The translations under genes and the position numbers were made by a program. DNA of 64,000 nucleotides from Campylobacterota bacterium (GTDB lineage: Bacteria > Campylobacterota > Campylobacteria > Campylobacterales > Nitratiruptoraceae). The stretch lies in NCBI GenBank assembly GCA_013153715.1, contig JAADDW010000020.1:1-64000 (forward strand). Direction: 5' to 3'. Each line of letters begins with the position of its first letter. Position 1 is the first letter of the stretch. The notes under the pieces were generated by a model. It ran no database searches, was not told the DNA's origin, and saw only the letters and a program-made list of their open reading frames with translations. This document shows, piece after piece, positions 1 through 14,327 of the stretch.

Positions 1-49
1 ACAAGGTGCCTACTTTCTCTTTGAATAAAAAAAGTTTTTTCAAATTTTG

Positions 50-293
50 CCTACACTCTCTACACAAAACCTCTAAAAGCCCCATAAAATGGGGCTTCCT
101 TTAGTGTAGTGTTCTCTATTTTCCCTACACTTTCCCTACACTGTTCCTACATTTTCCTACATGTGCCAATAACACTTCGTGTAGGATTAGTGTAGGATTG
201 GTGTAGGGTTTGTGTAGCTTTTTTGCATCTCCCTACACTATCAAAATACCCATAAATTGGGACTTTTAAGCCAATAGTGTAGGGAGTGTATGG
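50..293. repeat. Phased CCTACAC/GTGTAGG repeat array
   Basis: The left arm has CCTACAC or CCTACAT starting at 124, 135, 146 and 156. The right arm has the inverse, GTGTAGG or GTGTAGC, starting at 179, 190, 201 and 212. Spacing is 10-11 bp, so copies fall on the same helix face, and the two arms point towards each other around a short centre. More copies lie at 50, 59, 104 (inverse), 231, 277 (inverse) and 286 (inverse, imperfect). CCCTACACTAT (231-241) and ATAGTGTAGGG (274-284) form a perfect inverted pair. The layout resembles plasmid centromeres, replication iterons or transposase end-binding sites. No protein that would bind it is visible in the window, so the function is unknown. Confidence 0.85.
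77..97 (-). terminator. Hairpin, possible terminator within the repeat region
   Basis: AAGCCCCAT and ATGGGGCTT form a perfect 9-bp stem with a 3-nt loop. Read on the minus strand it is followed by TTTTAG, so it could terminate a leftward transcript. It sits among the CCTACAC repeats, so a structural role in the array cannot be excluded. Confidence 0.45.
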
Positions 294-546
294 TAATTTT
301 GCAAAACTTTTTTCAGAGCTTTTAACGCACCAGTTAAAATGAAACCAAACAGCCCCAAATACATCTCCTCTAAAGGAGAAAAACTACGGGTCCTGTTTAA
401 AACTTTAAAATGGTACAGAGGCTCGTGAGCGCAGGAAATGAACACTCAAGCTGATTTTTTCTGGTTGAGGGAGTAGCAAATCGCTACCTTTTAAGATTTC
501 TTTAAAACTACTAAAGCCACCAACTCGTTTATTATTTATTATATTG

Positions 547-816
547 ACTTCCTGCTCTTCGCCTAGGGTCTGAATTTTTTTCAGTCCCTTTTCATAACCG
601 CTTTCGATACGGGGGGCGGTATGTGGAGGTGCTTTTGTTGACTTTTGTTGCCTTTTTCCTGTTGACTTTTGTTGACTTTTGTTGACTTTTCTTTTAAATC
701 TTTAACACTAACAACCCACAAGAAGGACCCGTATACCTCCCTGAAGCCATAAGGTCATTGGACGAAGATGAAAAGGGGGTAAGAAAAGTTTACACCCCAG
801 GCGGAGAGCAGGAAGT
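547..816. repeat. Imperfect 17-bp inverted repeat pair
   Basis: ACTTCCTGCTCTTCGCC at 547-563 is the reverse complement of GGCGGAGAGCAGGAAGT at 800-816 with one mismatch. The pair brackets the 10-bp repeat block at 637-690. The string GGACCCG also recurs nearby (about 725 and 822) and appears inverted near 388. These duplicated fragments point to a rearranged or decaying accessory element. No gene is recognisable between them. Confidence 0.55.
637..690 (+). repeat. 10-bp GTTGACTTTT tandem repeats
   Basis: GTTGACTTTT occurs at 661-670, 671-680 and 681-690 in exact tandem. Two more units lie at 637-646 and, with one substitution (GTTGCCTTTT), at 647-656, separated from the rest by four bases. 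The 10-bp period is near one helical turn. The block lies upstream of the brnTA promoter, but a regulatory link is not shown. Iterons, an operator array and simple replication slippage are all possible. Confidence 0.8.
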
Positions 817-864
817 GAAAAGGACCCGCTTACTCCCTTAAAACTAAAATAACATGTCCATAGG

Positions 865-892
865 TTGATTATAGCGTAGGTTAGAGTATAAT
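865..892 (+). promoter_or_regulatory. Putative sigma-70 promoter of brnTA
   Basis: TTGATT at 865-870 and TATAAT at 887-892 are 16 bp apart. The -10 box ends 25 bp before the brnT start codon. BrnTA operons are usually repressed by their own antitoxin; no specific operator was identified here. Confidence 0.6.
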
Positions 893-917
893 AGAGTATC
901 ACCACTTGAGGGTTATC

Positions 918-1187
918 ATGGAGTTCGAATACGATCCAAACAAGAGCGAAGCCAACAAGCAAAAGCATGGCATAGATTTTGAAGAGGCTAAAGCGCTCTT
1001 TGACCAAGTAGGCATCATCATCCCAGCAAAAAGTGAAAATGAAGAGAGGTGGATGCTTATCGCATATCTTGGTAAGCGTTGCTATAGTGCAATATTTACC
1101 CATAGAGGAGAGCGTATACGCTTCATAAGCGTAAGACGCTGTAGAAAAAAAGAGGAAAGGCTTTACGATGAAAAGCATAAAAGCTGA
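918..1187 (+). CDS. brnT: BrnT family toxin
   Basis: This 89-residue protein fits the BrnT (DUF497) family of type II toxins, RelE-fold ribonucleases that inhibit translation. It shows the family pattern: FEYDPNKSEANKQKHGI at the N-terminus, then FEEAKALF, and a C-terminal IRFISVRRCRKKEERLY. The ORF track opens at a TTG at 906, but the ATG at 918 is preceded by GAGGG at 7-nt spacing and begins where the family usually begins. The antitoxin gene follows with a 20-nt overlap. It belongs to the AT-rich segment next to tRNA-Leu, consistent with carriage on a mobile island. Confidence 0.85.
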   Translation: MEFEYDPNKSEANKQKHGIDFEEAKALFDQVGIIIPAKSENEERWMLIAYLGKRCYSAIFTHRGERIRFISVRRCRKKEERLYDEKHKS

Positions 1188-1434
1188 AGAGTTCGATAGA
1201 ATGTTTGACGAAGGTGAAGACGTTACACAATACCTCGATACAGATAAGGCAATGAGCATTGAGGAGTTCAAGGAAAAGCTCAAACAAAAAACCGAAACGA
1301 TCGACATCGATCTACCCGTTGAGATCGTTCAAAAAATAGATAGCGAAGCTAACAAAATCGGCGTGGCGAGACAAGCACTCATCAAAGTCTGGATCGTAGA
1401 ACGTCTCAAAGAGGAACTCTCGAAGCCATTATGA
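1168..1434 (+). CDS. brnA: BrnA-like antitoxin (CopG/ribbon-helix-helix)
   Basis: This 88-residue partner of BrnT overlaps it by 20 nt, so translation is probably coupled. The N-terminal part is acidic and should wrap the toxin. The C-terminal part, from about residue 45 (IDIDLPVEIVQKIDSEA), resembles a ribbon-helix-helix DNA-binding domain that would repress the operon promoter. The assignment rests on gene order and this pattern. It overlaps the next ORF by four bases (ATGA). Confidence 0.75.
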   Translation: MKSIKAEEFDRMFDEGEDVTQYLDTDKAMSIEEFKEKLKQKTETIDIDLPVEIVQKIDSEANKIGVARQALIKVWIVERLKEELSKPL

Positions 1435-1646
1435 TGAAACAGACCGAAAGTAAAACAACGCAAGAGAGTGATGTAGAGATCTATATTGAGTTCAATAAAA
1501 AGAGCTTTCGCACCGTTGCCAAGACTTACAGCTACCTCCAGCGCCTCCTCAATAAAAAAATCGACCTCATCACCTCTCATAAAGGTGCGAATAAAAACAT
1601 TATCGAAAACATCAAAAAAGAGACGATATGGATCAGCAAACCATGA
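1431..1646 (+). CDS. Truncated MntA-like nucleotidyltransferase domain
   Basis: The 71-residue product matches the C-terminal half of minimal nucleotidyltransferases of the MntA/HepT type. SDVEIYIEF corresponds to the second metal-binding strand, and LLNKKIDLIT plus the closing IKKETIWIS are typical of the family end. The N-terminal helix and the GS(x)RxG nucleotide-binding motif are absent, so adenylyltransferase activity is unlikely. Start codons at 1431 and 1434 overlap the brnA stop, so it may still be translated. A HepT partner is not visible downstream. It is most simply a fragment left by recombination in the island, though a short domain reused as a third member of the brnTA operon cannot be excluded. 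Confidence 0.5.
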   Translation: MMKQTESKTTQESDVEIYIEFNKKSFRTVAKTYSYLQRLLNKKIDLITSHKGANKNIIENIKKETIWISKP

Positions 1647-2054
1647 GTTAGTATGCTGAACCGCCGCCCCTACTCCCCTCCGATAAAGCGGCTTTGACCT
1701 CTAAAGGATGAGGTGGCTTAAGGTTTCAAAATCCAAAAGTTTTGAAAATCAATGTTTTTTCAATACTTTTAAGGGCGGATTTTTTGACTCTTTGACTCAT
1801 TCATCTTTAAGTTAAGCTACCCAACCTTAAAAACTCGATTTTTGACCTCATCTGCTTAAGTTTAGCGCAAAAAGTACCGCTCAAAACCTTAAAGGTTAAA
1901 TTTCAGAAGTAGTAGCGTACTTTTTTATAAAAGTCTCTATGAGGAGGCTATTTAAGGATTTTCAAAGCGAAGATTTTTTGTAGTACGTTTTGTAGTATAA
2001 AACCGTTTCCCAAAACCTTAAAGTACCATAAAATCGGGCTTTCAAGCGATTTCA
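1647..2054. other. AT-rich non-coding boundary next to tRNA-Leu
   Basis: About 400 nt without a convincing gene. It contains several copies of a CCTTAAAG-like string (near 1733 inverted, 1830, 1886 and 2016). It also has two direct copies of TTTTGTAGTA at 1976-1985 and 1988-1997, shortly beyond the 3' end of tRNA-Leu. Such short direct repeats beside a tRNA can be arm-type integrase sites. No integrase gene and no duplicated tRNA end are seen inside the window. Confidence 0.5.
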
Positions 2055-2139
2055 TGGTGCGGGAGAGAGGACTCGAACCTCCACGCCTTGCGGCACCAGA
2101 TCCTAAGTCTGGCGCGTCTGCCAGTTCCGCCACTCCCGC
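2055..2139 (-). tRNA. tRNA-Leu (UAG)
   Basis: An 85-nt cloverleaf. The acceptor arm GCGGGAG pairs with CTCCCGC, the anticodon loop carries TAG, and a long variable arm is present as expected for Leu. The T loop is TTCGAGT. The terminal CCA is encoded at 2057-2055. It is the last gene of the minus-strand tRNA cluster, and its 3' end borders the AT-rich accessory segment, making it a plausible integration site. Confidence 0.95.
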
Positions 2140-2144
2140 GCTTC

Positions 2145-2221
2145 TGGTACGCCCGCCAGGACTCGAACCTGGAACCTACGGCTTAGAAGGCCGTTGCTCT
2201 ATCCAGTTGAGCTACGAGCGC
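2145..2221 (-). tRNA. tRNA-Arg (UCU)
   Basis: A 77-nt cloverleaf with anticodon loop CTTCTAA (anticodon UCU, reading AGA). Acceptor GCGCTCG pairs with CGGGCGT including G-U pairs. The CCA end is encoded. It lies 5 nt upstream of tRNA-Leu, in the same transcript direction. Confidence 0.95.
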
Positions 2222-2248
2222 AGTGGCACTTCTAGTTCTTAAAAGTAG

Positions 2249-2325
2249 TGGCACGCCCGAGAGGAGTCGAACCTCTAACCTACGGATCCGAAGTCCGTTG
2301 CTCTATCCAATTGAGCTACGGGCGC
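2249..2325 (-). tRNA. tRNA-Arg (UCG)
   Basis: A 77-nt cloverleaf with anticodon stem ACGGA/TCCGT and loop CTTCGGA (anticodon UCG, reading CGA). Acceptor GCGCCCG pairs with CGGGCGT. CCA is encoded. The acceptor and D-arm closely resemble the neighbouring tRNA-Arg (UCU), which suggests duplication and divergence. Confidence 0.95.
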
Positions 2326-2368
2326 ATCTGTCGGTTGTTTTGGGGCCTTGAAAGGCCAGGACCCAACA

Positions 2369-2445
2369 TGGGGTGGATGACCGGACTCGAACCGGCGACC
2401 CCCAGAGCCACAATCTGGTGCTCTAACCACCTGAGCTACACCCAC
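2369..2445 (-). tRNA. tRNA-His (GUG)
   Basis: A 77-nt cloverleaf with loop TTGTGGC (anticodon GUG). An extra G at 2446 can serve as the G-1 that pairs with C73, the histidine identity element. The acceptor GTGGGTG pairs with CATCCAC. CCA is encoded. Confidence 0.95.
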
Positions 2446-2458
2446 CATCATAAGAGAG

Positions 2459-2536
2459 TGGTCGGGGCGGAGGGATTTGAACCCCCGACCCCCTGGTCCC
2501 AAACCAGGTGCGCTAACCAGGCTGCGCTACGCCCCG
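2459..2536 (-). tRNA. tRNA-Pro (UGG)
   Basis: A 78-nt cloverleaf with loop TTTGGGA (anticodon UGG). It starts with CGGGGCG, as usual for tRNA-Pro, paired to CGCCCCG. CCA is encoded. It is the first gene of the five-tRNA cluster and lies just downstream of the helicase gene on the same strand. Confidence 0.95.
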
Positions 2537-2593
2537 CCAATCGGACTGAAATTATAGACTAAATCATCTCTTTTGTCAAGGGGAAAGGAGGCT

Positions 2594-4015
2594 CTACCTC
2601 CTGCGGTAGCGGCGCTCTCCCCTCTCTTCTCGTCCCCGTCTGAACCCCCTTCTGGTCCCCCTTCTCTGGTACTCTCGGGAGAGTTCCCTCTTCGTCCTTT
2701 CAAGGAGGTTCTCTATCTCCCTCAAACTCTTTCCGATCCGCTCGTTCCCTTCAATATTCTGCTCCTTCACCAAGAGGGAGGTGAGTTTGAGGGCTATGGT
2801 TGAGAGATCACTCTCTGCCTCTAGGAGGTTGAGGAGTTCTACCGCCTCTGTGGTCACCTCTTGAGAGAGGATCTTTTCTATAAGCTCCCTCTGTCTCTCG
2901 CCCTTGAGCTCGGTAGATGTTGGGATCTCCCTGTTGATGAGGGAGCTCCCTACCTCCTTCTGGATGCGGAGGAGCTGTTTGAACTCATGGGGGGTAACGA
3001 GGCTGATGGCCATACCTTCCCGACCGGCTCTTCCCGTTCTCCCTATTCTGTGGACATAACTCTCCGGGTCGAAGGGGATATGGTAGTTGAAGACATGGGT
3101 CACATCGCTAATGTCGAGGCCCCGTGCCGCCACATCGGTAGCAATGAGAATCTCTGTATGGCCATATTTGAAGCTCTTGATCACCTCTTCCCTCTGGCGC
3201 TGGACCATGTCGCCGTGGAGTCCTCGGGCGTTGTACCCTTGGGCGGCCAAAAATTGGGCAAGTCTATCGACTTCCGCTTTGGTACGACAGAAGATAATAC
3301 TCTTCGTCGGATTTTTGTAGTCGAGGAGGCGCATGAGGGCTTCATCTCTCTCATGCTCGTCAACTACATAGTAGAACTGTTTGATATTCTTGTTGGTCAC
3401 CTCCTTCTGGGTTATGGAGATGAATTCCGGGGAGTGGAGTATCTTCCGGGCCAACTCTTTGATGGCATCGGGCATTGTGGCGCTGAAGAGGAGGGTTTGG
3501 CGGTTGGTGGGGAGGTACTGGAAGATTGTCTGAATATCTTCCAGGAACCCCATGTCAAGCATCTCGTCGGCTTCGTCAAGGACAACAAATTGGGGGTTGA
3601 GCTCTATCTTTCCACTCTGGAGGAGGTCTAGGAGTCTCCCCGGAGTTGCAACAGCGACAGCGGCACTTTTCAGATGGGCTATCTGGCGGGCATAGGAACT
3701 TCCTCCGTAAACGGTTGCCGTCCGAATTCCCAAAAAGCGGCCCAGTCTGTATATCTCATCGCTTACCTGGGTTGCGAGTTCTCGGGTGGGGACAATGACA
3801 AGTCCCTCCACTCCTCCTGTGAGCTTGAGTTGGTTGAGGATGGGAAGGGCGAAAGCCGCCGTCTTTCCCGTTCCTGTGTGGGCCTGTCCCACAATATCTT
3901 TTCCCTGGAGGATAGGGGGAATAGCCGCCTTCTGGATCGGGCTCGGTTCTTTGAAGCCGGCTATATCGATGGCTTTCATTATCTCCGGTTTGAGATTGAA
4001 ATCTCTAAATGTCAT
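2594..4015 (-). CDS. DEAD-box ATP-dependent RNA helicase
   Basis: This 473-residue superfamily 2 RNA helicase probably unwinds structured RNA in ribosome assembly or mRNA decay. Visible motifs in order are the Q motif (PSPIQKAAIP), motif I AHTGTGKT, motif II DEAD (VLDEADEMLD), motif III SAT, IIFCRTK, ARGLD and HRIGRTGR. A strongly basic Arg/Gly/Glu-rich tail ends the protein and should bind RNA. The ORF track begins upstream, but the ATG at 4015 has AGAGGA five bases before it and starts at the conserved MTFRDF. The length suits the DeaD/CshA/RhpA group of Campylobacterota. It is divergent from the DUF493 gene. Confidence 0.95.
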   Translation of the reverse strand: MTFRDFNLKPEIMKAIDIAGFKEPSPIQKAAIPPILQGKDIVGQAHTGTGKTAAFALPILNQLKLTGGVEGLVIVPTRELATQVSDEIYRLGRFLGIRTATVYGGSSYARQIAHLKSAAVAVATPGRLLDLLQSGKIELNPQFVVLDEADEMLDMGFLEDIQTIFQYLPTNRQTLLFSATMPDAIKELARKILHSPEFISITQKEVTNKNIKQFYYVVDEHERDEALMRLLDYKNPTKSIIFCRTKAEVDRLAQFLAAQGYNARGLHGDMVQRQREEVIKSFKYGHTEILIATDVAARGLDISDVTHVFNYHIPFDPESYVHRIGRTGRAGREGMAISLVTPHEFKQLLRIQKEVGSSLINREIPTSTELKGERQRELIEKILSQEVTTEAVELLNLLEAESDLSTIALKLTSLLVKEQNIEGNERIGKSLREIENLLERTKRELSREYQRRGTRRGFRRGREERGERRYRRR

Positions 4016-4209
4016 AATTCCTCTTTGTCTGAATTTCCTTGAAGGGCGAATCTGGTCGATCCAATTTGGGGAAAAGGAGATAACAGACGCCTCTTGCAAG
4101 GCTTGGCGTATTGTATCGGTTTTTACTTAAATGTAACTTATGTTGCTTTTGGGTAGAACTAAATATGGTAATATAAAAGTTGGAGTTAATATTCATTGAA
4201 GGAGAGAAA

Positions 4210-4476
4210 ATGAAAGAGCTCAAAGATTTCAATCAGAAGGTCCATATAGAGTATCCAACAATATGGAGATACAAGGTGATTGGGGAAGATGCCCAGAAGA
4301 CGAGGAAGGCTATCGAAAGTGTGACGAAGCGGCCAACGACCATCACCTTCTCTAAGCAGTCCAATAGGGGAAAGTATCAGAGTTTCAACGCCGATATAAT
4401 GGTCCATTCGGAGGAGGAGAGGGAGCAGATCTATAGGGATTTGAAGGGGCACAAAGATATTAAGATGGTTCTATGA
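4210..4476 (+). CDS. DUF493 (YbeD/HP0495-like) family protein
   Basis: This 88-residue protein of the DUF493 family is a small ferredoxin-fold protein with no firmly established function. The family pattern is seen in YPTIWRYKVIGED followed by TTITFSKQSNRGKY(Q)SF and the closing HKDIKMVL. The ATG at 4210, after GGAGAG, is preferred to the upstream start at 4180. Its 3' end overlaps the convergent RNase Z gene by 17 nt. Confidence 0.8.
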   Translation: MKELKDFNQKVHIEYPTIWRYKVIGEDAQKTRKAIESVTKRPTTITFSKQSNRGKYQSFNADIMVHSEEEREQIYRDLKGHKDIKMVL

Positions 4477-5398
4477 TCTGGAGGGATCCCTCCTTCAGTC
4501 TGTAGCTCTCGAAATCCTGGGCGACGAAGGAGGGAGCGCTGTAGTGGCTCTCTATCTCCCTCTTGATGGGGGAGGGGTCCTCATCGAAACGGGGAGAGAT
4601 ATGGGTTGCAATAAGGTTCTTGACCCCAAAGCGGCTGGCCGTCAAGGCGAGTTCTCGGGCTGTTGTGTGGAGAAATTTCTTGGAGAGGTGGTCAAAGAGT
4701 TCCTGGGTATAGGTCGCTTCATGAATGAGGAGATCGAGTCCGGAGAGATAGTCGCCAAGGATAGCAGGTTCTCCATTGTCTCCCGCTATGATGAGGCGGG
4801 AGGGAGGAGTGGTCCAGCAGTAATCCTCAGGGAGATAGAGCTTTCCGTTGTAGAAGACTCTCTCCCCCCTTTTAATCTTTCAATAGAGCTCTCCAAATGG
4901 GAGTCCCTCCCGTCTCAACCTCTCCCCATCTAGATGGACGGTAGGGGCCTCCTCAATATAGAAGGCGTAGCTCTCGACAGAGTGCATGAGAGGGAGGGCC
5001 TTAATCTTGAGGGCTCCAAACTCTCCCCTCCAGCCTCCATAAATTTCGATCCACTCTATGGAAAATTGGAGGTTATCTATGGAGACATCTATGGAGCTCT
5101 CAACCATTTCCCGTACACCCTTGGGAGCGGCGATGGCGAGCGACTCCCTTCTTCCGTCCATCTTCATGGATGTGAGGAGCCCCGCGAGGCCGAAGGTGTG
5201 GTCCCCGTGGATATGGGTGATGAAAATTCCTCGGAGTCTGGAGCTGGTGAGATGGGAGAAGAGTATCTGGCGCTGGGTTCCCTCGGCACAATCGAAGAGA
5301 TACCATCCCCTTTCTCCCTCTCTCTCTAGACCGATGGCAGAGCAGTTCCGTCTCTTCGTCGGTCTTCCTGCGCTGGTGCCGAGGAAGGTGATCCTCAT
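4460..5398 (-). pseudogene. rnz: Ribonuclease Z, interrupted by an in-frame TGA
   Basis: RNase Z is a metallo-beta-lactamase-fold endonuclease that trims tRNA 3' ends. The frame opens with ITFLGTSAGRPT and carries the signature THIHGDH near residue 60. After codon 172 there is a TGA at 4882-4880. The same frame then stays open to 4460 and encodes the rest of the enzyme: KIKRGERVFYNGK, AGDNGE, HEATY and ATHISPRF. All metal-ligand motifs are therefore present, and only one codon is wrong. In related enzymes this position follows a GP(I/L)Y motif and is often Arg; CGA to TGA is a single C-to-T change. It could be a real nonsense mutation, a sequencing error or a recoded codon. The start overlaps moaC by ATGA. 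Confidence 0.9.
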
Positions 5399-5871
5399 CT
5401 CCTGAAATCTCCGCTCTTTCCTCCACTCTTTCGCTCAAGCTGAATCTCCGTGATTACCATCGCCTTATCGATGGCCTTAACCATGTCGTAGATAGTGAGG
5501 AGTCCGATGGAAACCCCTGTAAGGGCCTCCATCTCCACCCCTGTCCTCCCTTTGAGGCGACATTCGACGGTGAGGCGGAAACCGGGGAGATCAGGGAGTT
5601 CTTCAATATCACAATTTATAGAGGTGAGGAGGAGGGGGTGACACATCGGAATGAGATCCGGTGTCTTCTTGGCCCCCATAATAGCCGCTATGACCGCTGT
5701 ATGGAGGACCGCCCCCTTCTTTGTTGTCTGGTCGATGACAGCTCGATAGGCTTCCGGACTCATAATAATCTTTCCGCTGGCTACAGCTATTCGCTGGCTC
5801 TCCTCCTTGGCTCCAACATCTACCATTTTGGGGCGCTGATGCTCATTGAGATGTGTCAGATCAGAGCTCAT
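5395..5871 (-). CDS. moaC: Cyclic pyranopterin monophosphate synthase MoaC
   Basis: At 158 residues this is the usual MoaC length. MoaC converts the MoaA product into cyclic pyranopterin monophosphate in molybdenum cofactor synthesis. Typical motifs are [26 protein letters not shown] and [11 protein letters not shown], followed by [10 protein letters not shown]. It is the middle gene of a small minus-strand operon, overlapping the Dabb gene upstream and rnz downstream by a few bases. Confidence 0.95.
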
Positions 5872-6142
5872 AATCTACCACCTTTGTCTCCGTTCCTCTC
5901 TCTTTCAACCACCGAACGATCTCTTGGTGGTAGGGATCGGTTCGGTATCTCTCCAAATCTTCACGGCTCTCGAAGGTTGTCACCAGGGCCAGATCGAAAC
6001 TTCTCTCGCTCCTACTAAAATCTATTCCTACTTCAATCTCTCTGAGGACAGGAACTCTCCCTCTCATAGAGAGAAGCCGTTCTCGGGCACTTTGTGCTAA
6101 ACTAAAATCTGGAAACCGCATGAAGACAATATGTCTCACCAT
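5861..6142 (-). CDS. Dabb (stress-responsive alpha/beta barrel) family protein
   Basis: This 93-residue protein resembles the Dabb family, small dimeric alpha/beta barrels of uncertain role. [10 protein letters not shown] at the start, the central [24 protein letters not shown] and the final VVDYEL fit the pattern. It overlaps moaC by 11 nt. The ATG is kept as the start; a GTG one codon later is an alternative, and no strong ribosome-binding site separates them. Confidence 0.75.
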
Positions 6143-6168
6143 TGAAGACCCTTTGAAGGAGATAGATT

Positions 6169-6621
6169 ATGAAAAAATGGGTTCTTGCTATTGTACCACT
6201 TTTGCTCTTAGGGGCCCCTTGTGGCAAGTGTGAGCTCAATAAGGCGGAGATGCGGTGCGATTTCTATGTAGCCCGTCAGGGAGATCGGTCTCGGGTAGAG
6301 TCCTGTCGGGAGTATGCCGACTATCTCCACAAGACCCAAGTGTATGGAAAGGCGGCATGGTACTATCTCCTCTCGCTCCAGCCCGAAAAGGCTCTGGAGT
6401 CTGCCCAGAAGGCGGTAAAGATGGGTGAGGGATACGCCTATGAATATATGGGTGACGCCTATCTCATTCTTGGGAAGAGGGAGAAGGCAGAGGAGGCCTA
6501 TAGAAAATTCTCCCAGAGCGTTGGGAATACCCATTTCTTTACATCTAAATCTTTTCCCATCTTGGAGAGGCTCTATACCCAATTTCCCCGAAGAGAGGCT
6601 GAAAAGATCCTAGAAAAATAA
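6169..6621 (+). CDS. Secreted TPR-like hypothetical protein
   Basis: The 150-residue product starts with a signal peptide (MKKWVLAIVPLLLLGAPCGKC) that may be cut as Sec or lipoprotein-like. The mature part has tetratricopeptide-like helices (AAWYYLLSLQPEKALESAQK, YEYMGDAYLILGKREKAEEAY). It is probably a periplasmic scaffold or assembly factor, but the partner is unknown. AAGGAG precedes the ATG. It lies divergent from the Dabb gene. Confidence 0.6.
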   Translation: MKKWVLAIVPLLLLGAPCGKCELNKAEMRCDFYVARQGDRSRVESCREYADYLHKTQVYGKAAWYYLLSLQPEKALESAQKAVKMGEGYAYEYMGDAYLILGKREKAEEAYRKFSQSVGNTHFFTSKSFPILERLYTQFPRREAEKILEK

Positions 6622-6700
6622 CACTCTCTTAACTATCTTATAACTGGTCGATAACGGGGCTCTCGCTATACTTCTCCTATAACAAGATGAAGGAGGTGAG

Positions 6701-7846
6701 ATGAGAAAAGGATTTTTTGGAGCCCTTGCCCTTGCTGTGGTACTCTTTGGAACTGCCCAAGCGGCTCCCGAAAGGATGGAAGGGTTCGGATTCCATGAGA
6801 TGGAGGAGCATAGTGAAGAGATGGCCTACTCTTCTATCCCTTTTGATGAAGAGAATGAGACGATCGGTGAAATTGGTAGGCCCATCGAGCCTAAACCAGT
6901 TGTTGAAGTTCCCGAGCCAGTAGATGGAGAAGGTGAGGAGGGAGGAGCTATCATTGAAGAGCCCCCCTTCGATCCCGACCAACCTGACCATCCCGATGTC
7001 AACGGGTCCTTTATAAAACCTCTTCCTCCTGTTGAGGCTGGGCCCAAAGAGCCAGAGATGGAGGAAGAGGGTTTCTCTTCTATGCCCTATGATCCCGAAG
7101 CTCCCGATTTTGAAGATCACGGAATGGAAGGAAAAATGGAGCATGCTAGCTCATCTGCCCAAGCTATGGCCGATGATCATAGTGGAGAAGAGGGACATGG
7201 CGATTTCCATAACCTTTTAGAGGAGCTCCTCCATGATGAGACACTCCCTCCTGAGGTGAAAGATGTGCTCCACGATGTGAAGAAGGCGATTAAATTCTAT
7301 GACAAAGAGGATCTCTTTGAAGACCTCAATATTACAAGCCTCGATGAACTCGTCAACAACCCAGACCTTCTCCAGGAGCTCGAAGAGCGGGTCAAAGAGG
7401 CTGAAGAGATGAGAAAAGAGGAGCTGGTCCACGCCCTTTTGAAGGATCAGGAGAAGGCGGAATACCCTATCAAAGGGTACTTTGTGAAAATCGGCCCTGG
7501 TCAGTATGATTGGATCTATGTGGCGGCAAATGGGAAAGTTTACAAGCTAGTGGGGGTCAACCCAGAGACAGGTAATTTCCAATATAGTCCCTATGATGGA
7601 GTTGTGGAGATTCTCGACGATGGGAAGATCAAGGTTGGTGATGAGGTGAAGAAGGGGCTCCCCTTTGTCAAATATGATGATCCTGATGAAGATGGATTTG
7701 ATTGGGTTGTCATTCTCAATGGAAAGCCCTACAAGCTTGAGGGATTTGATTTTGACGAGGCAAGCTTTGTCTATACCCCTGTCGATGGTGTTGTCGCCCA
7801 AGAAGAGGGTGATAGTGTCGAACTCCTTCCAGGACAAGCGGGTTAA
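6701..7846 (+). CDS. Acidic secreted protein with two copies of an unnamed C-terminal module
   Basis: This 381-residue protein has a signal peptide ending near AQA, a very acidic Pro/Glu-rich region with the near-repeats YSSIPFDEE and FSSMPYDPE, a helical Glu/Leu-rich middle, and two related C-terminal modules (about residues 256-305 and 318-375). The modules share D-W-[IV], a G, K-L-x-G and F-x-Y-[ST], seen as YDWIYV, YKLVGV, FQYS and FDWVVI, YKLEGF, FVYT. A third copy appears in the secreted protein at 34540-35679. I do not recognise the family. The modules look like compact beta domains. AAGGAGG precedes the start. The 3' end overlaps the convergent hydrolase gene by four bases. Confidence 0.65.
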   Translation: MRKGFFGALALAVVLFGTAQAAPERMEGFGFHEMEEHSEEMAYSSIPFDEENETIGEIGRPIEPKPVVEVPEPVDGEGEEGGAIIEEPPFDPDQPDHPDVNGSFIKPLPPVEAGPKEPEMEEEGFSSMPYDPEAPDFEDHGMEGKMEHASSSAQAMADDHSGEEGHGDFHNLLEELLHDETLPPEVKDVLHDVKKAIKFYDKEDLFEDLNITSLDELVNNPDLLQELEERVKEAEEMRKEELVHALLKDQEKAEYPIKGYFVKIGPGQYDWIYVAANGKVYKLVGVNPETGNFQYSPYDGVVEILDDGKIKVGDEVKKGLPFVKYDDPDEDGFDWVVILNGKPYKLEGFDFDEASFVYTPVDGVVAQEEGDSVELLPGQAG

Positions 7847-7858
7847 TCCCCCCGCTTG
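7835..7858. terminator. Hairpin spanning convergent stop codons
   Basis: CAAGCGGG (7835-7842) pairs perfectly with CCCGCTTG (7851-7858) around an 8-nt loop that contains the stop codon of the plus-strand gene. It can act in both directions as a terminator for the two converging genes, although neither side has a clear U tract. Confidence 0.5.
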
Positions 7859-8631
7859 ATCCACCTTTTAAGAACCCTCCAGCTCTCTTCCATATCCAAA
7901 ATATCTCCATGATCGCTTTCCCTGATGACCACCACCTCTCGGAGATTTTTAATATGGGGTTTCAGGAGTTCCCATGTGCTCCGAGGAGTTGTCCGATCCT
8001 CTTCTGCCAGCATAACATAGGTAGGACTCTCTACTCTTTCGATGAAGCGGTAGGTCTCGAAGGGGTGGCGGAGGAGGAGTTTGATAGGGAAGATGGGGTA
8101 ACGCAGTTTGGCGAGATGGGTGATGGAGTGGTAGGGAGTGATGAGGATGACTTTCTCAACGGAGTCTCCCCCGTGGGCCGCTACGAAGGCCGCCACAGCT
8201 GTACCGAGGGAGCGGCCCACTATAATATTTTTATCCCCCTTGAAACGGTGGAATATGGTGAGGGCCCCTTTGAAAAGGGTCTCTTGGGAAGGCTTCCCCT
8301 GGGATCTCCCATAGCCTGGATAGTTCATCGCCACGATGTCGATCCCTTCTAGCCTCTGGGCGAGGGTGAGGAATTCCAAGGCGTTATCGGCATTTCCCCC
8401 AAAATAGAAGAGCCTTTTTCCTCCTCTCCCCTCCAGGAACCCCACTTCAAGTCCGTCGATGAAGGTTCTCCTCCCCCCTGGAGGGAGGGAGACCTCTCGG
8501 GGGGCCAGATCTGTTCGGAAGATGAGGGAATCTTGGAAGAGAAAGAGATAGAGGAGGGAGATGAGATAGCTAAGAGAGGCGGTGCTTATAGTCGCAATAA
8601 TCAAATTTTTTGACAATTTCCAACTCTCCAT
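7843..8631 (-). CDS. Alpha/beta hydrolase, membrane anchored
   Basis: This 262-residue serine hydrolase has an N-terminal membrane segment (IIATISTASLSYLISLLYLF). The fold is shown by NYPGYGRSQG, the nucleophile elbow GRSLG, the acid in LAEEDRTTP and the histidine in SDHGDI. It resembles bacterial ABHD13/BEM46-like hydrolases; the substrate is unknown. The ATG at 8631 follows GAGAGAAA and makes the gene overlap nspC by 62 nt in another frame, an unusually long overlap here. Starts at later TTG codons are possible. Confidence 0.8.
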   Translation of the reverse strand: MESWKLSKNLIIATISTASLSYLISLLYLFLFQDSLIFRTDLAPREVSLPPGGRRTFIDGLEVGFLEGRGGKRLFYFGGNADNALEFLTLAQRLEGIDIVAMNYPGYGRSQGKPSQETLFKGALTIFHRFKGDKNIIVGRSLGTAVAAFVAAHGGDSVEKVILITPYHSITHLAKLRYPIFPIKLLLRHPFETYRFIERVESPTYVMLAEEDRTTPRSTWELLKPHIKNLREVVVIRESDHGDILDMEESWRVLKRWIKRGD

Positions 8632-9706
8632 TTTCTCTCAAGATGGCGAGGGAGGGGAGTCGAATACCGTTGAATGTTGTATTCTTGACGAAGGTGTAGT
8701 GGATCATATCTTCAAAGATGATCTTGTCTCCCCGTTTGAGGGGATGGTCGAAGCTGTAATCTCCAATAATGTCGCCTGCGAGACAGCTATTTCCCCCCAG
8801 GCGGTAGATATACCCTCCCTCCGAAGGTTCCTTGGCTCCCCGAACCCGTGGTTTGTAGGGCATTGCAAGGACATCGGGCATATGGGTCTCCGCCGAGGTA
8901 TCGAGGATAGCTATATCCATTCCGTTATGGACAATATCGATAACCGTCGCCACCAGGACGCCGGTCTCCCACCCTACAGCCTCTCCAGGTTCCAGATAGA
9001 CCTGGAGATCGTACTCCTCTCCGAACTCCCTAATCAACTTTACCAGGAGTTCCCTATTGTATCCCTCTTTCGTAATATGGTGCCCCCCTCCGAAATTGAC
9101 CCATCGACAGCGGGGGAGGAACTCTCCAAACCTCTCTCTCACCCCTTCCAGTACTTTCTGGAGGCTCTCGGCACTCTCTTCACAGAGGGCGTGGAAGTGG
9201 AGCCCTTCCAGGCCATCGTCCCACTGAAACTCCTTTCTGGTGACACCGAGACGGCTGTAGGGGGCACAGGGGTTGTAGAGGTCGATTGGGGCCGCACTCA
9301 CCTCCGGATTGATCCGTATTCCGAGGGAGCAGTTATGGGATTGGGCTATCTCTTTGAAGTGGTGGAGCTGGTAGAGGGAGTTGAAGATGATGTAGTCGCT
9401 CATCTTCGCAATGAGGGGAAACTCGTCATCCTTGAAGGCTGGAGAGTAGGTGTGGACCTCCTTCCCCAACTCCTCGAAGGCGAGCTGGGCTTCCCAGAGC
9501 CCGCTGGCGGCCGCCCCTGCAAGATACTCTCCCACCAGGGGGAAAGTACTCCACATGGCAAACCCTTTGAGGGCGACGATTATTTTTGCCCCCGATTCCC
9601 TTTCGATCTCGTCGAGGATCTCCAGATTTCTCCGGAGGAGGCGCTCCTCACAGATGTAGCAAGGGGTGGGAATACGGTGGAGCACCTCTTCGATACCCCT
9701 CTCCAT
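8570..9706 (-). CDS. nspC: Carboxynorspermidine decarboxylase
   Basis: This 378-residue PLP enzyme decarboxylates carboxynorspermidine or carboxyspermidine to the triamine, the last step of the alternative polyamine pathway used by Campylobacter and Vibrio. The alanine-racemase-fold PLP lysine lies in IIVALKGFAMW. HFHALCEE, FGGGHHITKEGY and EPGEAVGW fit NspC. Its start overlaps the stop of the dehydrogenase gene at 9706, so the two steps are coupled. Confidence 0.93.
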   Translation of the reverse strand: MERGIEEVLHRIPTPCYICEERLLRRNLEILDEIERESGAKIIVALKGFAMWSTFPLVGEYLAGAAASGLWEAQLAFEELGKEVHTYSPAFKDDEFPLIAKMSDYIIFNSLYQLHHFKEIAQSHNCSLGIRINPEVSAAPIDLYNPCAPYSRLGVTRKEFQWDDGLEGLHFHALCEESAESLQKVLEGVRERFGEFLPRCRWVNFGGGHHITKEGYNRELLVKLIREFGEEYDLQVYLEPGEAVGWETGVLVATVIDIVHNGMDIAILDTSAETHMPDVLAMPYKPRVRGAKEPSEGGYIYRLGGNSCLAGDIIGDYSFDHPLKRGDKIIFEDMIHYTFVKNTTFNGIRLPSLAILRENGELEIVKKFDYCDYKHRLS

Positions 9707-10914
9707 CAGCCTATCTTTTCGTTGGGGTCAAGTTCCTCAATGTGCCATGGAAGTCCCTGGCGCTGGAGCTCCTCCATGAAGGGGTCCGGATCGAACTGTT
9801 CCATATTCCAGACTCCGGGCTTATGCCACTTGCCCTCCAGCATCAACTTGGCCCCGATCATCGCCGGAACCCCTGTCGTATAGCTGACACACTGGCTATA
9901 GACCTCCTTGTAGGCCTCCTGGTGGTCACAGATGTTGTAGATGTAGATTCTCCTCCGTTCTCCATCTTTGATACCCTCACAGACCACACCGATATTGGTC
10001 TTCCCTTTGGTCCTCGCTCCGAGACTGGCAGGGTCTGGGAGGAGGGCTTTGAGGAGGTGGAGGGGGACCACTCTGCACCCATCGACCTCCACGGGATCTA
10101 TTCTTGTCAATCCCACATTATCGAGGACCTTGAGGTGGGTCAGATAGCTCTCGGAGAATGTCATCCAGAAGCGGATCCGTTTGAGCCCCTTAATATGTTT
10201 GACCAGAGACTCCTCCTCTTCATGGTAGAGGAGATAGCTCTTTTTGGGGCCGATTTCTGGATAGTTCCAGACCATACTGATCTCCATGGGTTCCGTCTCG
10301 ATCCACCTCCCATTCTCCCAGTATCTCCCCTTGGAGTTGACCTCCCTGATATTGATCTCCGGATTGAAATTGGTGGCAAAGGGGTAACCGTGATCCCCTG
10401 CATTACAGTCCAGGATGTCGATATATTCGATAACATCGAGGAGATGTTTCTGGGCATAGGCGACGAAAACATTGGTCACTCCTGGGTCGAAACCGCTCCC
10501 GAGAAGGGCCATAATTCCCCGTTGTTGAAAGGGTTCGTGGAGGGCCCACTGCTCCTTGTACTCGAATTTGGCTGTGTCAGGGTGTTCATAATTGGCGGTA
10601 TCGAGGTAGTCAACCTTGGTCTCCATACAGGCTTCCATAATGGTTAAATCCTGGTAGGGAAGGGCCACATTGATGACAATGTCCGGCTTCACAAGGTTGA
10701 TGAGGTCGATAAGCTCGTTGAGATTGTCGGCATCGACCCTCGCCACATCGATCCGCCTATTCCACTTGTCGAGAATTTCGTCTCGGATCTCCTCACACTT
10801 GGCCAATGTTCTACTGGCCAGGGTAATACTCTGGAATGTATCGGGATTGAGGGCGCACTTGTGGGCGACGACCCGTCCTACTCCTCCTGCGCCGATAATG
10901 AGAACCTTGCCCAT
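9706..10914 (-). CDS. Carboxynorspermidine/carboxyspermidine dehydrogenase (Lys9/Lys1-like)
   Basis: This 402-residue saccharopine-dehydrogenase-like enzyme joins aspartate semialdehyde to a diamine. It has the N-terminal nucleotide-binding motif IIGAGGVGRVVAHKCA, then VINVALPYQDLTIMEAC and LLGSGFDPGVTNVF, which are typical of the carboxynorspermidine branch. The adjacent nspC supports the assignment over lysine metabolism. A 56-residue basic ORF lies 22 nt upstream and could be co-transcribed. Confidence 0.9.
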   Translation of the reverse strand: MGKVLIIGAGGVGRVVAHKCALNPDTFQSITLASRTLAKCEEIRDEILDKWNRRIDVARVDADNLNELIDLINLVKPDIVINVALPYQDLTIMEACMETKVDYLDTANYEHPDTAKFEYKEQWALHEPFQQRGIMALLGSGFDPGVTNVFVAYAQKHLLDVIEYIDILDCNAGDHGYPFATNFNPEINIREVNSKGRYWENGRWIETEPMEISMVWNYPEIGPKKSYLLYHEEEESLVKHIKGLKRIRFWMTFSESYLTHLKVLDNVGLTRIDPVEVDGCRVVPLHLLKALLPDPASLGARTKGKTNIGVVCEGIKDGERRRIYIYNICDHQEAYKEVYSQCVSYTTGVPAMIGAKLMLEGKWHKPGVWNMEQFDPDPFMEELQRQGLPWHIEELDPNEKIG

Positions 10915-10936
10915 CTCTCTCCTTTATTTAAGTGAA

Positions 10937-11107
10937 TTAAACATAGATGTCTATCTTTCCCTTCCGCCCTCTCTTGGAGGCGGTTACCCCTTTCTTCTTT
11001 TTCCTCTTTCCCTTCTTTTTGTATTCGCCCCAAATATTGTAAGGATGGCGCTCGTCTGTCACTCTGTAGGTTGTTGTGATCTTTTCGATAGATGGTAGAG
11101 GCTTCAT
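10937..11107 (-). CDS. Small lysine-rich basic protein, 56 aa (not in ORF track)
   Basis: An open frame from ATG at 11107 to TAA at 10937 encodes 56 residues, starting MKPLPSIEKITTTYRVTDER and followed by a run rich in Lys, Arg and Gly, ending KIDIYV. AAGG sits about 8 nt before the ATG. The gene lies between the cytochrome gene and the polyamine dehydrogenase on the same strand. The N-terminal half (HPYNIWGEY) looks ordered and the C-terminal half is likely a nucleic-acid-binding tail. I do not recognise the family. Confidence 0.55.
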   Translation of the reverse strand: MKPLPSIEKITTTYRVTDERHPYNIWGEYKKKGKRKKKKGVTASKRGRKGKIDIYV

Positions 11108-11130
11108 TGGAAAACCTTTCCCATTTTTTC

Positions 11131-11562
11131 CTATTGTACCCTATTTTTGATGCGCTCAATCCCGAGGAGAGGTCTCCGTTGGAGGTCTGGAAACTCTTTG
11201 ACCCCCTTCTGGTGGCACCCCGTACAGTTTCCGTAGAAGAGGGCCGCTCCCTCCTGAACCCACTCTCTATGGGAAGGGGTCTCTCCGTGGAGTGTCGCAA
11301 TATAGGCCGCTATCTTTCGGGCTTCATCTTCTTTCACATATCCTCCCTCCATCTTTGTAGGGAAGCCGAGACTCTCTGAACCTTCCATAATTACATGGAA
11401 AGTATACTCTTCCACCAAGTGGGGGGAGCTGGGATCCAACTGAAGGGTTTCCTCCTTTTTCCGATTTTCTCCTCTCTCTTGGAGATGTTCCCTTCCCCCC
11501 TTGAAGATAAGGGCTATGACCAGAAGGAGAAAGGGGAGTATGAGTAGAAGTGTCCGTTTCAT
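11131..11562 (-). CDS. Membrane-anchored mono-haem c-type cytochrome
   Basis: The 143-residue product begins with a hydrophobic anchor (MKRTLLLILPFLLLVIALIF) and has one CXXCH haem site in GNCTGCHQKG near the C-terminus, with a class I-like region (EDEARKIAAYIATLHG) before it. It is probably a periplasmic electron carrier. The ATG at 11562 is preferred to the track start because the leader begins there. It is divergent from trxC. Confidence 0.75.
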   Translation of the reverse strand: MKRTLLLILPFLLLVIALIFKGGREHLQERGENRKKEETLQLDPSSPHLVEEYTFHVIMEGSESLGFPTKMEGGYVKEDEARKIAAYIATLHGETPSHREWVQEGAALFYGNCTGCHQKGVKEFPDLQRRPLLGIERIKNRVQ

Positions 11563-11650
11563 CTGGAAAATTGTAGCAAAATGTGACTTTGGATACATAT
11601 CCAGAGAAGATGATGTGTTAAGATATGCAAAAAGTTTTGAAGGAGCGCCT

Positions 11651-12082
11651 ATGGAAACGATCAATGTGGTCTGTCCCAACTGTCTGGCTGTTAACCGCCT
11701 CCCCAAGAAGAGTTTCTACACCAAGGCCAAATGTGGAAAGTGTGGGTACAATCTCCTCGACACCCATCCTGTCGAACTCACTCCCGAGAGTTTCGAGACC
11801 ATGATTACTAAAAACGATATTCCTGTCATCGTCGATTTCTGGGCTCCCTGGTGTGGACCGTGTCAGATGATGGCTCCCGCCTTTGAAGATGCCGCCAGCC
11901 GTTTCGCCCTCAAGGCCAGATTTGCCAAGGTCAATACAGAGGAGTATCCCCAGTTAGCACAGCCCTTTGGGATCAGGGGAATTCCGACGATGATCGCTTT
12001 CAAACATGGTCAGGAGTTGGGTCGTGTCAGTGGGGCTCTCAGTGCGGAGCAGATAATTCAGTGGGTCAGCAGGTTTCTCTGA
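11651..12082 (+). CDS. trxC: Thioredoxin TrxC (thioredoxin 2 type)
   Basis: The 143-residue protein has an N-terminal zinc ribbon with CPNC and CGKC and then a thioredoxin domain with active site WCGPC and the cis-proline loop GIRGIPTMIAF. Cytosolic thioredoxin 2 reduces disulfides and responds to oxidants. The ATG at 11651 follows AAGGAG; the longer track start is not credible. A strong inverted repeat follows the stop. Confidence 0.95.
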   Translation: METINVVCPNCLAVNRLPKKSFYTKAKCGKCGYNLLDTHPVELTPESFETMITKNDIPVIVDFWAPWCGPCQMMAPAFEDAASRFALKARFAKVNTEEYPQLAQPFGIRGIPTMIAFKHGQELGRVSGALSAEQIIQWVSRFL

Positions 12083-12088
12083 TGTGAG

Positions 12089-12112
12089 GGTTTCGGGCGG
12101 GCGCCCGAAACC
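12089..12112. terminator. Bidirectional terminator between trxC and a cytochrome gene
   Basis: GGTTTCGGGC (12089-12098) and GCCCGAAACC (12103-12112) form a perfect 10-bp stem with a 4-nt loop, placed exactly between two convergent stop codons. It likely serves both genes. Confidence 0.8.
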
Positions 12113-12418
12113 TTACTTCTTCAACTTGGCGATATAGTCGGCCAGTGCCTCAATGTCTGCGTCGCTGAGGCTCGCCACCTGTCCCTTCATGAGCATTCCC
12201 ATACCGTAAACATTGCGTGTTCCGGCTTTGTACCCTTTGAGGGCTTCGATAGTTTTCGCTTTATCCCAACCTGCGATGGGAGCAGACTTTCCGAGGGCCT
12301 GTTTTTCACCATTGGCACCGTGACATCCGGCACACTTTTTGTAGAGAGCCGCACCATCGGCCGCCATGAGAGTTGAAGCTACAAGAGCACTGAGTGTGAG
12401 TACAGCAAACTTTTTCAT
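12113..12418 (-). CDS. Periplasmic class I c-type cytochrome (c553-like)
   Basis: The 101-residue protein has a signal peptide ending AAD, a haem site KKCAGCHGANGEKQALGK, and an axial methionine probably in YGMGMLMKGQ. The closing ALADYIAKL helix is standard for cytochrome c553. It is a soluble electron carrier, plausibly feeding the cbb3-type oxidase implied by ccoG. The ATG has AAGGAGG close by. Confidence 0.9.
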   Translation of the reverse strand: MKKFAVLTLSALVASTLMAADGAALYKKCAGCHGANGEKQALGKSAPIAGWDKAKTIEALKGYKAGTRNVYGMGMLMKGQVASLSDADIEALADYIAKLKK

Positions 12419-12448
12419 CTTATCCTCCTTTGGTAGAGATTTATTGGA

Positions 12449-12465
12449 ACGGGGCAGAGCCCCGT
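12449..12465 (-). terminator. Hairpin downstream of the cytochrome-like gene
   Basis: ACGGGGC and GCCCCGT pair perfectly over 7 bp with a 3-nt loop, just after the stop of the gene at 12478-12801 and before the next cytochrome gene on the same strand. The U tract is weak. Confidence 0.6.
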
Positions 12466-12477
12466 AGGCTCAATTCA

Positions 12478-12801
12478 TTAACAGCTGGGAACATTCCCGC
12501 TGTCGCTGGCATACTCATAGGCAAAATCGTAGATATGTTTGAGCTGACCAGGTTTCAGGTATCCCTTTTTGTAGTTGGGACAGATTTTCTGGATCTCATC
12601 CTCAAATTTGCCCTCTTCATTGATCTCTTCCCACTCATCTTGGGTATGCTTTGCGGCAAACTTAGCACCGTTGAAACCGCAGACCTTCTTCAGCTTCTTC
12701 TGATAGATTTTCTGCCCTTTGCTGGCATCTGCAAAGGCCGCGGTTGTGATGAAGCTCGCTCCAAAGAGTGCCGCTAGGAGCAGAGTGGCGATCTTTTTCA
12801 T
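12478..12801 (-). CDS. Periplasmic cytochrome-c-like protein lacking CXXCH
   Basis: This 107-residue exported protein (signal peptide ending AFA) starts its mature part like a small cytochrome (DASKGQKIYQKKLKKVC) and ends with a helix like cytochrome c. Where a CXXCH would sit there is VCGFNGAKFAAKH instead. Three cysteines remain (KKVCG, KICPN, VPSC). It may be a haem-free relative, use a different attachment, or form disulfides. The neighbours are true cytochromes. Confidence 0.6.
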   Translation of the reverse strand: MKKIATLLLAALFGASFITTAAFADASKGQKIYQKKLKKVCGFNGAKFAAKHTQDEWEEINEEGKFEDEIQKICPNYKKGYLKPGQLKHIYDFAYEYASDSGNVPSC

Positions 12802-12864
12802 CTTCCCTCCTTGTTTAGGTGTTGTAAGAGTATTATAGGAGATAATTGTGGATTAATTGTGAGT

Positions 12865-13176
12865 CTATCGAATCCTCCCAATAACTTTATAGCGGTTCCA
12901 ATAGATCTGGAGGATGATCTCCAACTCATCTGGATCCACTTGGTGGCGGTAGATCTTCCGCCCCTTGACAAGACTCCTCTCAGGATCGGGATTGAGGAGT
13001 TGCTCTCTCATGGCCCCCTTGACTCCCCGCTCACTGCTGTAGTGGAGGAGATAGTCGAAGAAGAGGGGCTTGAGGGGGAGCTGGATCCGATTGTGGCACT
13101 CTCCACACCGCCTCTCCAAGAGATCTCCCCGTGCGAGGAGGAGTCCGACCAGCAGGAGGGCTATCACTCTCTCCAT
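12865..13176 (-). CDS. Small mono-haem c-type cytochrome
   Basis: The 103-residue product has a short export signal (MERVIALLLVGLLLARG) and one haem site RRCGECHNRI. The rest (FFDYLLHYSSERGVKGAMRE) is not a standard class I fold, so the closest family is uncertain. It overlaps the 3' end of the histidine kinase gene by 13 nt. It may be a target or redox partner of that regulatory system. Confidence 0.7.
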   Translation of the reverse strand: MERVIALLLVGLLLARGDLLERRCGECHNRIQLPLKPLFFDYLLHYSSERGVKGAMREQLLNPDPERSLVKGRKIYRHQVDPDELEIILQIYWNRYKVIGRIR

Positions 13177-14327
13177 AGGACGGTGACCTCCGTGTACTCG
13201 TTGAGTTCCGACTCGATCTTTATTTGGAGACCGAACTCCTTGGCGATCATATAGACAATATGCATTCCTATTCCAAATCCCCCCTCCGCTTTGCTCAACC
13301 GTTTATACCGCTCGAAGATCTCCTTGATCTGCTCTTTGGGAATTCCGACTCCGCTATCCTTGACCCTGAAACCTCCCCTGAATGTATAGACCTCAACCTT
13401 TCCCCCTATTTTGTTGTATTTGATGGCGTTGGAGAGAATATTGTCCACGAGGCGGGAGATCTTCTTCCGGTCGGCACGGAGGGTCGATGGGGCGAGATGG
13501 AGACGGAACTCCACTTTTTTACTCTGGGCTAGGGGTTTGAAGTAGTCGGTCCGTTGCCTCAAAAGCTCTGCCATATCGATTGTCTCAATTTTGGATGGGA
13601 GCCGTTCATGGAGGAGGAGATAGGTGAGGTCGTTGTAGATTGTGGCTATTGTCCTGGCGGCTATCTCTATCCGTCTGATCTTTTTGAGGAGCCTCTCATC
13701 GTCGCTCTCTATTGTCTCTATATTGGTCAGAATTGTACTCACAGGGGTATTGAGCTCATGGGTTGTATCTTTGATGAAGTCGTTGAGGAGCATAATGGAG
13801 TTCCGCATGGGACGGAGGAAGAGGCGGACCAGAAAGTAGCCGATGATCGCCATGAAGAGGAGGAAGAGGGAACCGAAGAGGACAATGTTGGTCAGGGCCC
13901 GCCTCAACCACTTCTCATCATCATCTATCTCAATAATGACATACTTGGCCCCCAGATAGTAGAGCTCCGGCTCTTTGATGAAGTAGATATACTTGCCACA
14001 CTTGTAGAGGACCTGGTGAAATTTGATCTCATGCCGATGGATGAGGGAGAAGATCTGGGTATAGTCGGCGTCGTAGATGGCCGATCGGAAGCTGGAGTAG
14101 CGGGGGTAGTAGTTGTCCTCTAGAAGACTCTCGTGCATCTGTCGGATTCTATGGATAACATCTTTTGCGTGGTTCTGGAGTTTGGGGAGGTGGAGGTTGA
14201 GGGCCAGCTCCTTTTCAAAACGGAAGTACATGAAGGAGGCGAGGGAGAAGATAATCACGGTGAGGAAGATGTAGAGGGTAAGGAAGGAGAGGAGGGTACG
14301 CCGCTCACTTGATAAATTTATACCCAT
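13164..14327 (-). CDS. Sensor histidine kinase
   Basis: A 387-residue inner-membrane kinase. Two transmembrane helices (about residues 14-32 and 147-170) flank a periplasmic sensor region. The H-box is DTTHELNTPVSTI, the N-box LVDNILSNAIKYNK, and the ATP lid includes DSGVGIPKEQ and GGFGIGMHIV. It overlaps its response regulator upstream by 23 nt. The signal is not evident. Confidence 0.92.
   Translation of the reverse strand: MGINLSSERRTLLSFLTLYIFLTVIIFSLASFMYFRFEKELALNLHLPKLQNHAKDVIHRIRQMHESLLEDNYYPRYSSFRSAIYDADYTQIFSLIHRHEIKFHQVLYKCGKYIYFIKEPELYYLGAKYVIIEIDDDEKWLRRALTNIVLFGSLFLLFMAIIGYFLVRLFLRPMRNSIMLLNDFIKDTTHELNTPVSTILTNIETIESDDERLLKKIRRIEIAARTIATIYNDLTYLLLHERLPSKIETIDMAELLRQRTDYFKPLAQSKKVEFRLHLAPSTLRADRKKISRLVDNILSNAIKYNKIGGKVEVYTFRGGFRVKDSGVGIPKEQIKEIFERYKRLSKAEGGFGIGMHIVYMIAKEFGLQIKIESELNEYTEVTVLWRE

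Follow-up and report, generated by a model that had tools for sequence, protein, structure and literature searches.

A gene-free palindromic element in a Campylobacterota genome shares its arm plan with elements of Bacteroidales that carry a VapE-like helicase gene

The window, by which we mean the whole stretch of 64,000 nucleotides analysed, starts at a contig edge (C15:1) and carries close to this edge a dense array of the heptamer CCTACAC and its complement GTGTAGG. We found eight exact units, at 50, 124, 135 and 232 in forward and at 179, 190, 201 and 277 in inverted orientation, as well as six with one mismatch, at 59 (TCTACAC), 146 and 156 (both CCTACAT) in forward and at 104 (GTGTAGT), 212 (GTGTAGC) and 286 (GTGTATG) in inverted orientation. 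The 14 units span positions 50–292 and agree with one another, as CCTACAC with single-base departures. The eight exact units in 320 bp compare with a mean of 0.05 and a maximum of two in 5000 dinucleotide shuffles, and the shuffle maximum for any 7-mer in the same 320 bp was six. When the units were re-located, all positions given in the original prediction were found to be right, and its perfect inverted pair extends to 13 bp (229–241/274–286). A random density of the motif across the genome had been named there as grounds for giving up the array. This was not observed: the remaining 63.7 kb of the window held just two copies of CCTACAC/GTGTAGG, no second array was detected elsewhere in the 1.5 Mb genome (G000), and the array was unique among 399 genomes of the order.

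The whole feature is larger than first noted, and forms one gene-free palindromic element with two arms at 28–316, which is complete although the window starts at a contig edge. It was delimited by its inverted repeats, by its predicted fold as single-stranded DNA (z = -10.2), and by alignment and profile match to arms from Bacteroidales genomes. Read from the end inward, each arm starts with an A/T-rich end repeat and a unit pair spaced by 9 bp; a side hairpin follows, which a single inverted unit closes, and then a run of four units at 10–11 bp spacing. The left outer end, AAAAAAGTTTTTTCAAATTTTG (28–48, forward strand), is 84% complementary to 295–313, and is followed by the left outer unit pair (50–65, forward strand; CCTACAC at 50–56 and TCTACAC at 59–65), which was recovered by both the unit search and the profile match. 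The left side hairpin, AAGCCCC-ATAAAAT-GGGGCTT (77–97, forward strand), is apparent in the sequence and in the DNA fold, and the inverted unit GTGTAGT (104–110, reverse strand; unit search and profile match) lies at +54 from the first unit. The unit search further placed four central direct units, two CCTACAC and two CCTACAT (124–162, forward strand), which face, across 16 bp, four central inverted units at 11-bp spacing, three GTGTAGG and one GTGTAGC (179–218, reverse strand). On the right arm, a single unit of opposite facing (232–238, forward strand; unit search and inverted repeat) mirrors that at 104–110, and the right side hairpin AAAATACCCATAAATTGGGACTTT (243–266, forward strand; repeats and DNA fold) mirrors that at 77–97. 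The right outer pair, GTGTAGG at 277–283 and GTGTATG at 286–292 (277–292, reverse strand; unit search and profile match), is likewise spaced by 9 bp, and the element closes with the right outer end GTAATTTTGCAAAACTTTTTTCAG (293–316, forward strand), recognised from the A/T-rich end repeats 28–46/295–313. Both outer ends resemble those of copies in the Bacteroidales genome G399, the left one the AAAAAACTTTTTT-type ends and the right one ATTATTGCGAAAAAGTTTTTTCTGA.

A search of Rfam with window 1–5000 returned tRNAs only, and the same search with the Bacteroidales loci described below returned a cobalamin riboswitch only. The element thus does not correspond to a known RNA, and RNAalifold gave no conserved pairing within individual arms.

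In a genome of the same genus, G006, the tRNA cluster found at window 2055–2536 is directly preceded by tRNA-Leu and atpE, and window 1–1569 is missing. The matching atpE/tRNA-Leu stretch of G000 ends contig C41, the last feature of which (C41:36166) is tRNA-Leu, and the array stands at the start of C15. By synteny with G006, C41 probably lies next to C15, separated from it by DNA that was not assembled. The absence in G006 and the end of C41 together mark window 1–1569 as a variable island, the left part of which is unassembled. Absence of the array from a close relative, raised in the original prediction as an observation that would speak against it, is thus real; such an absence is compatible with an element that was acquired sporadically, and hence does not deprive the array of meaning. 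Within the island, window 906–1434 encodes a BrnT/BrnA toxin-antitoxin pair with an antitoxin of the ribbon-helix-helix type. A short ORF at window 1431–1646 resembles a fragment of a Polbeta nucleotidyltransferase. This ORF is probably a decayed gene, as G006 keeps only its 3' end (1569–1664). A second repeat system lies beside the array at window 385–850, in which a 52-nt inverted repeat (544–595/768–819, 81%) encloses 10-bp tandem repeats of GTTGACTTTT (632–690), with copies of CGGGTCCT/AGGACCCG at 387, 724 and 821. Similar repeats, GTTGACTxGT, occur just outside the arms of another locus, L150. One protein of the window has the carboxynorspermidine decarboxylase 3n29, the enzyme of Campylobacter, as its best PDB match, so that gene content, too, points to a host within Campylobacterota.

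The 11-bp phasing and the presence of BrnA, a CopG/ribbon-helix-helix-type protein encoded at 1168–1434, could be taken to mean that the array is a parC-like centromere or an operator of such a protein. However, 600 bp separate the array from brnTA, no such array was seen in relatives whose DNA matches the brnTA stretch, and the two mirrored arms with side hairpins match the VapE elements described below. No parM or parR gene was recognised among the ORFs of window 1–14000, the DNA left of the window being outside the assembly. We consider a centromere or an operator extremely unlikely. With respect to the original prediction, the description of two phased, opposed arms of putative protein-binding sites, of the kind found at replication origins or transposon ends, is retained, and the plasmid centromere is not.

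An exact-pattern scan for opposed arrays in 85,462 GTDB species genomes returned 11 loci, only in Bacteroidales MAGs and Prevotella, all of which share the anatomy of the window element. The search of the genome and of relatives that had been proposed for the motif array thus uncovered the same plan in many dispersed Bacteroidales copies. Five of these genomes carry roughly 1 to 16 copies each, most of them gene-free. At two loci, L097 and L098, the central blocks are separated by 1.2–1.4 kb containing one ORF, the product of which is VapE-like (PF05272 at 6e-33 and 9e-38), with the DUF3874 domain over the Pfam cut-off in L097 and under it in L098. PHROGs labels these ORFs as phage DNA helicase/primase, and the sole PDB match of the proteins is 7pds (SaPI5 Rep, 'similar to D. 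nodosus vapE'; E = 1.5e-9). Matches in PADLOC were weak and were judged to reflect generic ATPase similarity. In the full-length form, a pair of units at 8-bp spacing, a side hairpin that includes one inverted unit, and at least three units at 10–12 bp spacing are followed by one gene and the mirror image of this arm. Full-length elements measure 1.4–2.3 kb, and their single gene encodes a VapE-like AAA+ (SaPI-Rep-type) helicase of 395–430 aa with a C-terminal DUF3874 domain.

Long terminal inverted repeats were present at 10 of 18 VapE ORF loci, with scores of 51–232 as compared with shuffle maxima of 34 or less. At an eleventh locus, a compact gene-free element with the unit CCCGTCACC (L151:1741–1985) lies directly upstream of the VapE gene, not around it. 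No arms were detectable at the other seven loci (L156–L158 and L161–L164), indicating that arms are not universal for this VapE protein clade. Terminal repeats were also not found at two VapE-like loci on phage contigs, L214 and L216, which encode larger proteins of about 690 aa that have an additional N-terminal portion. The exact full opposed pattern had no match in IMG/VR, and a looser pattern matched one phage contig. Species-specific repeats of about 10–21 bp (for example TTACGGCAAAGTGGCACG, TTGCGCTTGTGCACAG and CGGACTTGCAA) cluster beside the elements L054, L056, L060, L064, L099 and L111–L113.

Membership of the window copy in this family was assessed with an arm profile built from 25 Bacteroidales arms, with the window left out, and searched against 95 kb. 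The profile detected both window arms (E = 1.3e-12 and 2.9e-9). Unit offsets in the L097 arms are 0, 8, 55 (inverted), 74, 85 and 96 on both sides, and those in the window are 0, 9, 54 (inverted), 74, 85, 96 and 106/107 on both sides. Thus, six of six L097 template positions were matched within 1 bp in each window arm, as happened in 3 of 200,000 random placements. Because the heptamer had served as the search key, its sequence match is partly the result of selection, and since helical phasing constrains spacing, unrelated proteins in two phyla might have come to use the same 7-bp unit in a similar phased layout. Nevertheless, the spacings outside the search key (9, 54 to the inverted unit, and 74, on both arms) match as well, the profile recognises each window arm independently, and the outer ends are alike, so that such convergence appears very unlikely. 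The array could also be an iteron origin, or the fossil of a once-integrated plasmid or satellite, served by an initiator other than VapE and bearing no mobile-element relation to Bacteroidales. Opposed sets of direct repeats are typical of iteron origins, and the repeat system at 544–819 would suit this explanation. We regard it as quite unlikely, since it has to contend with an arm plan that matches the Bacteroidales elements within 1 bp on both arms, and with the failure of blastn to find a match to the array, and with it a replicon, in plasmid and phage collections.

The mirrored arm plan and the shared unit sequence are therefore present in the window copy, and a gene between the arms and a VapE gene elsewhere in the genome are absent. 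With 16 bp and no gene between its central arrays, the window copy can be classed only as a gene-free derivative. A VapE-like gene was found in 1 of 399 genomes of the order (Campylobacterales; L169), and no terminal repeats were detected at this locus. In the arm-profile search of the same 399 genomes, the window was the only clear match (E < 1e-11), alongside two marginal partial matches with E near 0.009. Another genome of the Campylobacterales, G120, has a direct-only pair of GTGTAGGTTGTGTGTAGG (L065:1499–1519) upstream of a gene for a response regulator; this pair resembles an ordinary regulator site and was not counted as related. The original prediction held that the binding protein must be encoded left of the window. 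This was not borne out, as the related Bacteroidales elements carry their own gene between the arms and no VapE-type gene was detected in G000, which is 98% complete with the stretch left of the window outside the assembly. Since VapE genes were not found in G000 and are all but absent from the order, no partner for the window copy is apparent. Having lost the gene and lacking a detectable helper helicase, it is most likely a stranded, inert relic that was acquired by horizontal transfer.

The strongest rival explanation is that the arms are arm-type sites of a tyrosine recombinase, that the window array belongs to the att site of an element which inserted at the tRNA-Leu next to it, and that VapE is mere cargo. 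The probable left neighbour C41 does end in tRNA-Leu, and the phage contig L066 carries, at 7264–7858, two CCTACAC arms that flank a tRNA-like stretch, immediately downstream of an ORF resembling an integrase (PF00589, E = 3e-4). The offsets of these arms, 0, 9, 55 (inverted), 66 (inverted), 84, 95, 103 and 0, 8, 54 (inverted), 65 (inverted), 84, 103, are close to those of the VapE-element arms, and this layout beside an integrase means that the arms could be recombinase sites. The L066 arms face outward, as if a VapE-type element were circularised. Unlike in attP, however, no att core lies in the 16 bp that separate the two facing window arms; no tRNA was called in L066 by ARAGORN, and the integrase of this contig shows no similarity to the VapE proteins. 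Moreover, the Bacteroidales elements occupy many intergenic sites, encode no recombinase and share no core repeat, and arm-type sites would leave the co-variation of units and DUF3874, presented below, unexplained. An integrase might still act in trans on elements that carry no recombinase gene themselves; none was found among the genes examined at the window start, the DNA to its left being outside the assembly. We consider recombinase arm sites unlikely, and convergence, a centromere or an operator fits the data less well.

The family, which has many SPECIFICITIES, keeps its plan constant, and its unit sequences vary between elements and agree within each. The unit types include CCTACAC (as in L097), CCTTCAC (as in L207), ACTTCAC, CTCTTCAC, CCTCCAC (as in L150), CCGTCAC, CACCTATCA, CACCTACC and CTGCCATA, among others. 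At one locus, orthologous in three genomes and flanked by the same genes, the units are CCTACAC throughout in G403 and CCTTCAC throughout in G402 and G579; the proteins encoded there are 90–92% identical in the ATPase core and 49–50% identical in the C-terminal domain (DUF3874). Among 13 related elements, unit similarity correlated with similarity of the C-terminal domain in a Mantel test (r = 0.48, P = 0.0005), also when the ATPase was given (partial r = 0.45, P = 0.002), and there was no correlation with the ATPase once the C-terminal domain was controlled for. The Rep protein of SaPI reads the origin iterons via its C-terminal domain (PMC7581432). By analogy, the helicase very probably reads the units, and DUF3874 is probably the sequence-reading domain of these VapE-type initiators. 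We found no mention of DUF3874 in the open-access literature searched, the coverage of which is incomplete; the co-variation suggests a function for this domain, and the elements provide a naturally occurring set of protein/DNA pairs that differ in specificity.

Two gene-free copies present in G403 have no counterpart where the orthologous sites of G402 and G579 lie, which shows a difference between species and not the direction of change; the left border of one of them is sharp and follows the T-run of a terminator. No consistent target-site duplication was seen at 34 copies, and no recombinase, nuclease or shared core repeat was found among the copies. Taken together, we assign a probability of roughly 0.6 to the interpretation that window 28–316 is a MITE-like, gene-free representative of a family of small elements which, at full length, carry one VapE-like DUF3874 helicase between mirrored arms and work as follows. 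The DUF3874 domain would bind the short units cooperatively on both arms, with AAA+ rings forming on the central arrays that face each other. Melting of the DNA that lies between these arrays or surrounds them may then allow a local start of replication, as by SaPI Rep at its iterons, and the spread of copies may rely on host repair or on a recombinase provided in trans. A more far-reaching hypothesis is that this is a mobile element without transposase, recombinase or nuclease, the sole gene of which encodes an AAA+ helicase able to load itself and to bind the iteron arms at both ends of the element; the element would multiply by locally initiated DNA synthesis and leave gene-free copies able to cross phyla, its unit and DUF3874 co-diversifying into many mutually exclusive specificities. 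We put this forward tentatively, and on balance consider it doubtful; if the elements truly move, a mobile DNA with a replicative helicase as its only gene would be surprising.

The elements, best represented here in gut Bacteroidales, apparently combine a known kind of initiator with an arrangement for which we found no description; for VapE or iteron mobile elements, the literature searched (incomplete in coverage) gave only SaPI/SCCmec-type systems and unrelated MITEs. The parC site of plasmid R1 likewise has 11-bp phased repeats in two blocks, but the related elements show no ParM/ParR relation, and their arms hold inverted units and side hairpins. The arm sites of attP, as in L066, are also short sites at 8–11 bp spacing in two arms, whereas the window arms face inward without an att core and the gene associated with the family is a helicase. 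MITEs such as BrickBuilt of Porphyromonas gingivalis (PMC4596501) are also short, gene-free, palindromic, intergenic and multi-copy in Bacteroidales. The window copy shares with MITEs its terminal inverted repeats, lack of coding capacity and intergenic position, but is single-copy in G000, with no target-site duplication or parent transposase. Identity with BrickBuilt was checked and rejected: the BrickBuilt ends match IS5-family terminal repeats, whereas the elements described here have no known transposase, no visible target-site duplication, and site arrays in both orientations. The Rep/ori of SaPIs (SaPI5 Rep, PDB 7pds; SaPIbov1) and the SCCmec Cch2 origin have in common with the present elements a VapE-type AAA+ helicase and short iterons beside the helicase gene, a feature that is found in the Bacteroidales relatives only and not in the window copy. 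Recognition by the C-terminal domain, described for SaPI (PMC7581432), is in the Bacteroidales elements suggested by co-variation. Unlike SaPIs, the Bacteroidales elements have no integrase, primase or packaging genes, and gene-free copies are scattered through the genome; the helicase gene is the only one they carry, and the two mirrored iteron arms on either side of it make up the ends of a unit of 1.4–2.3 kb.
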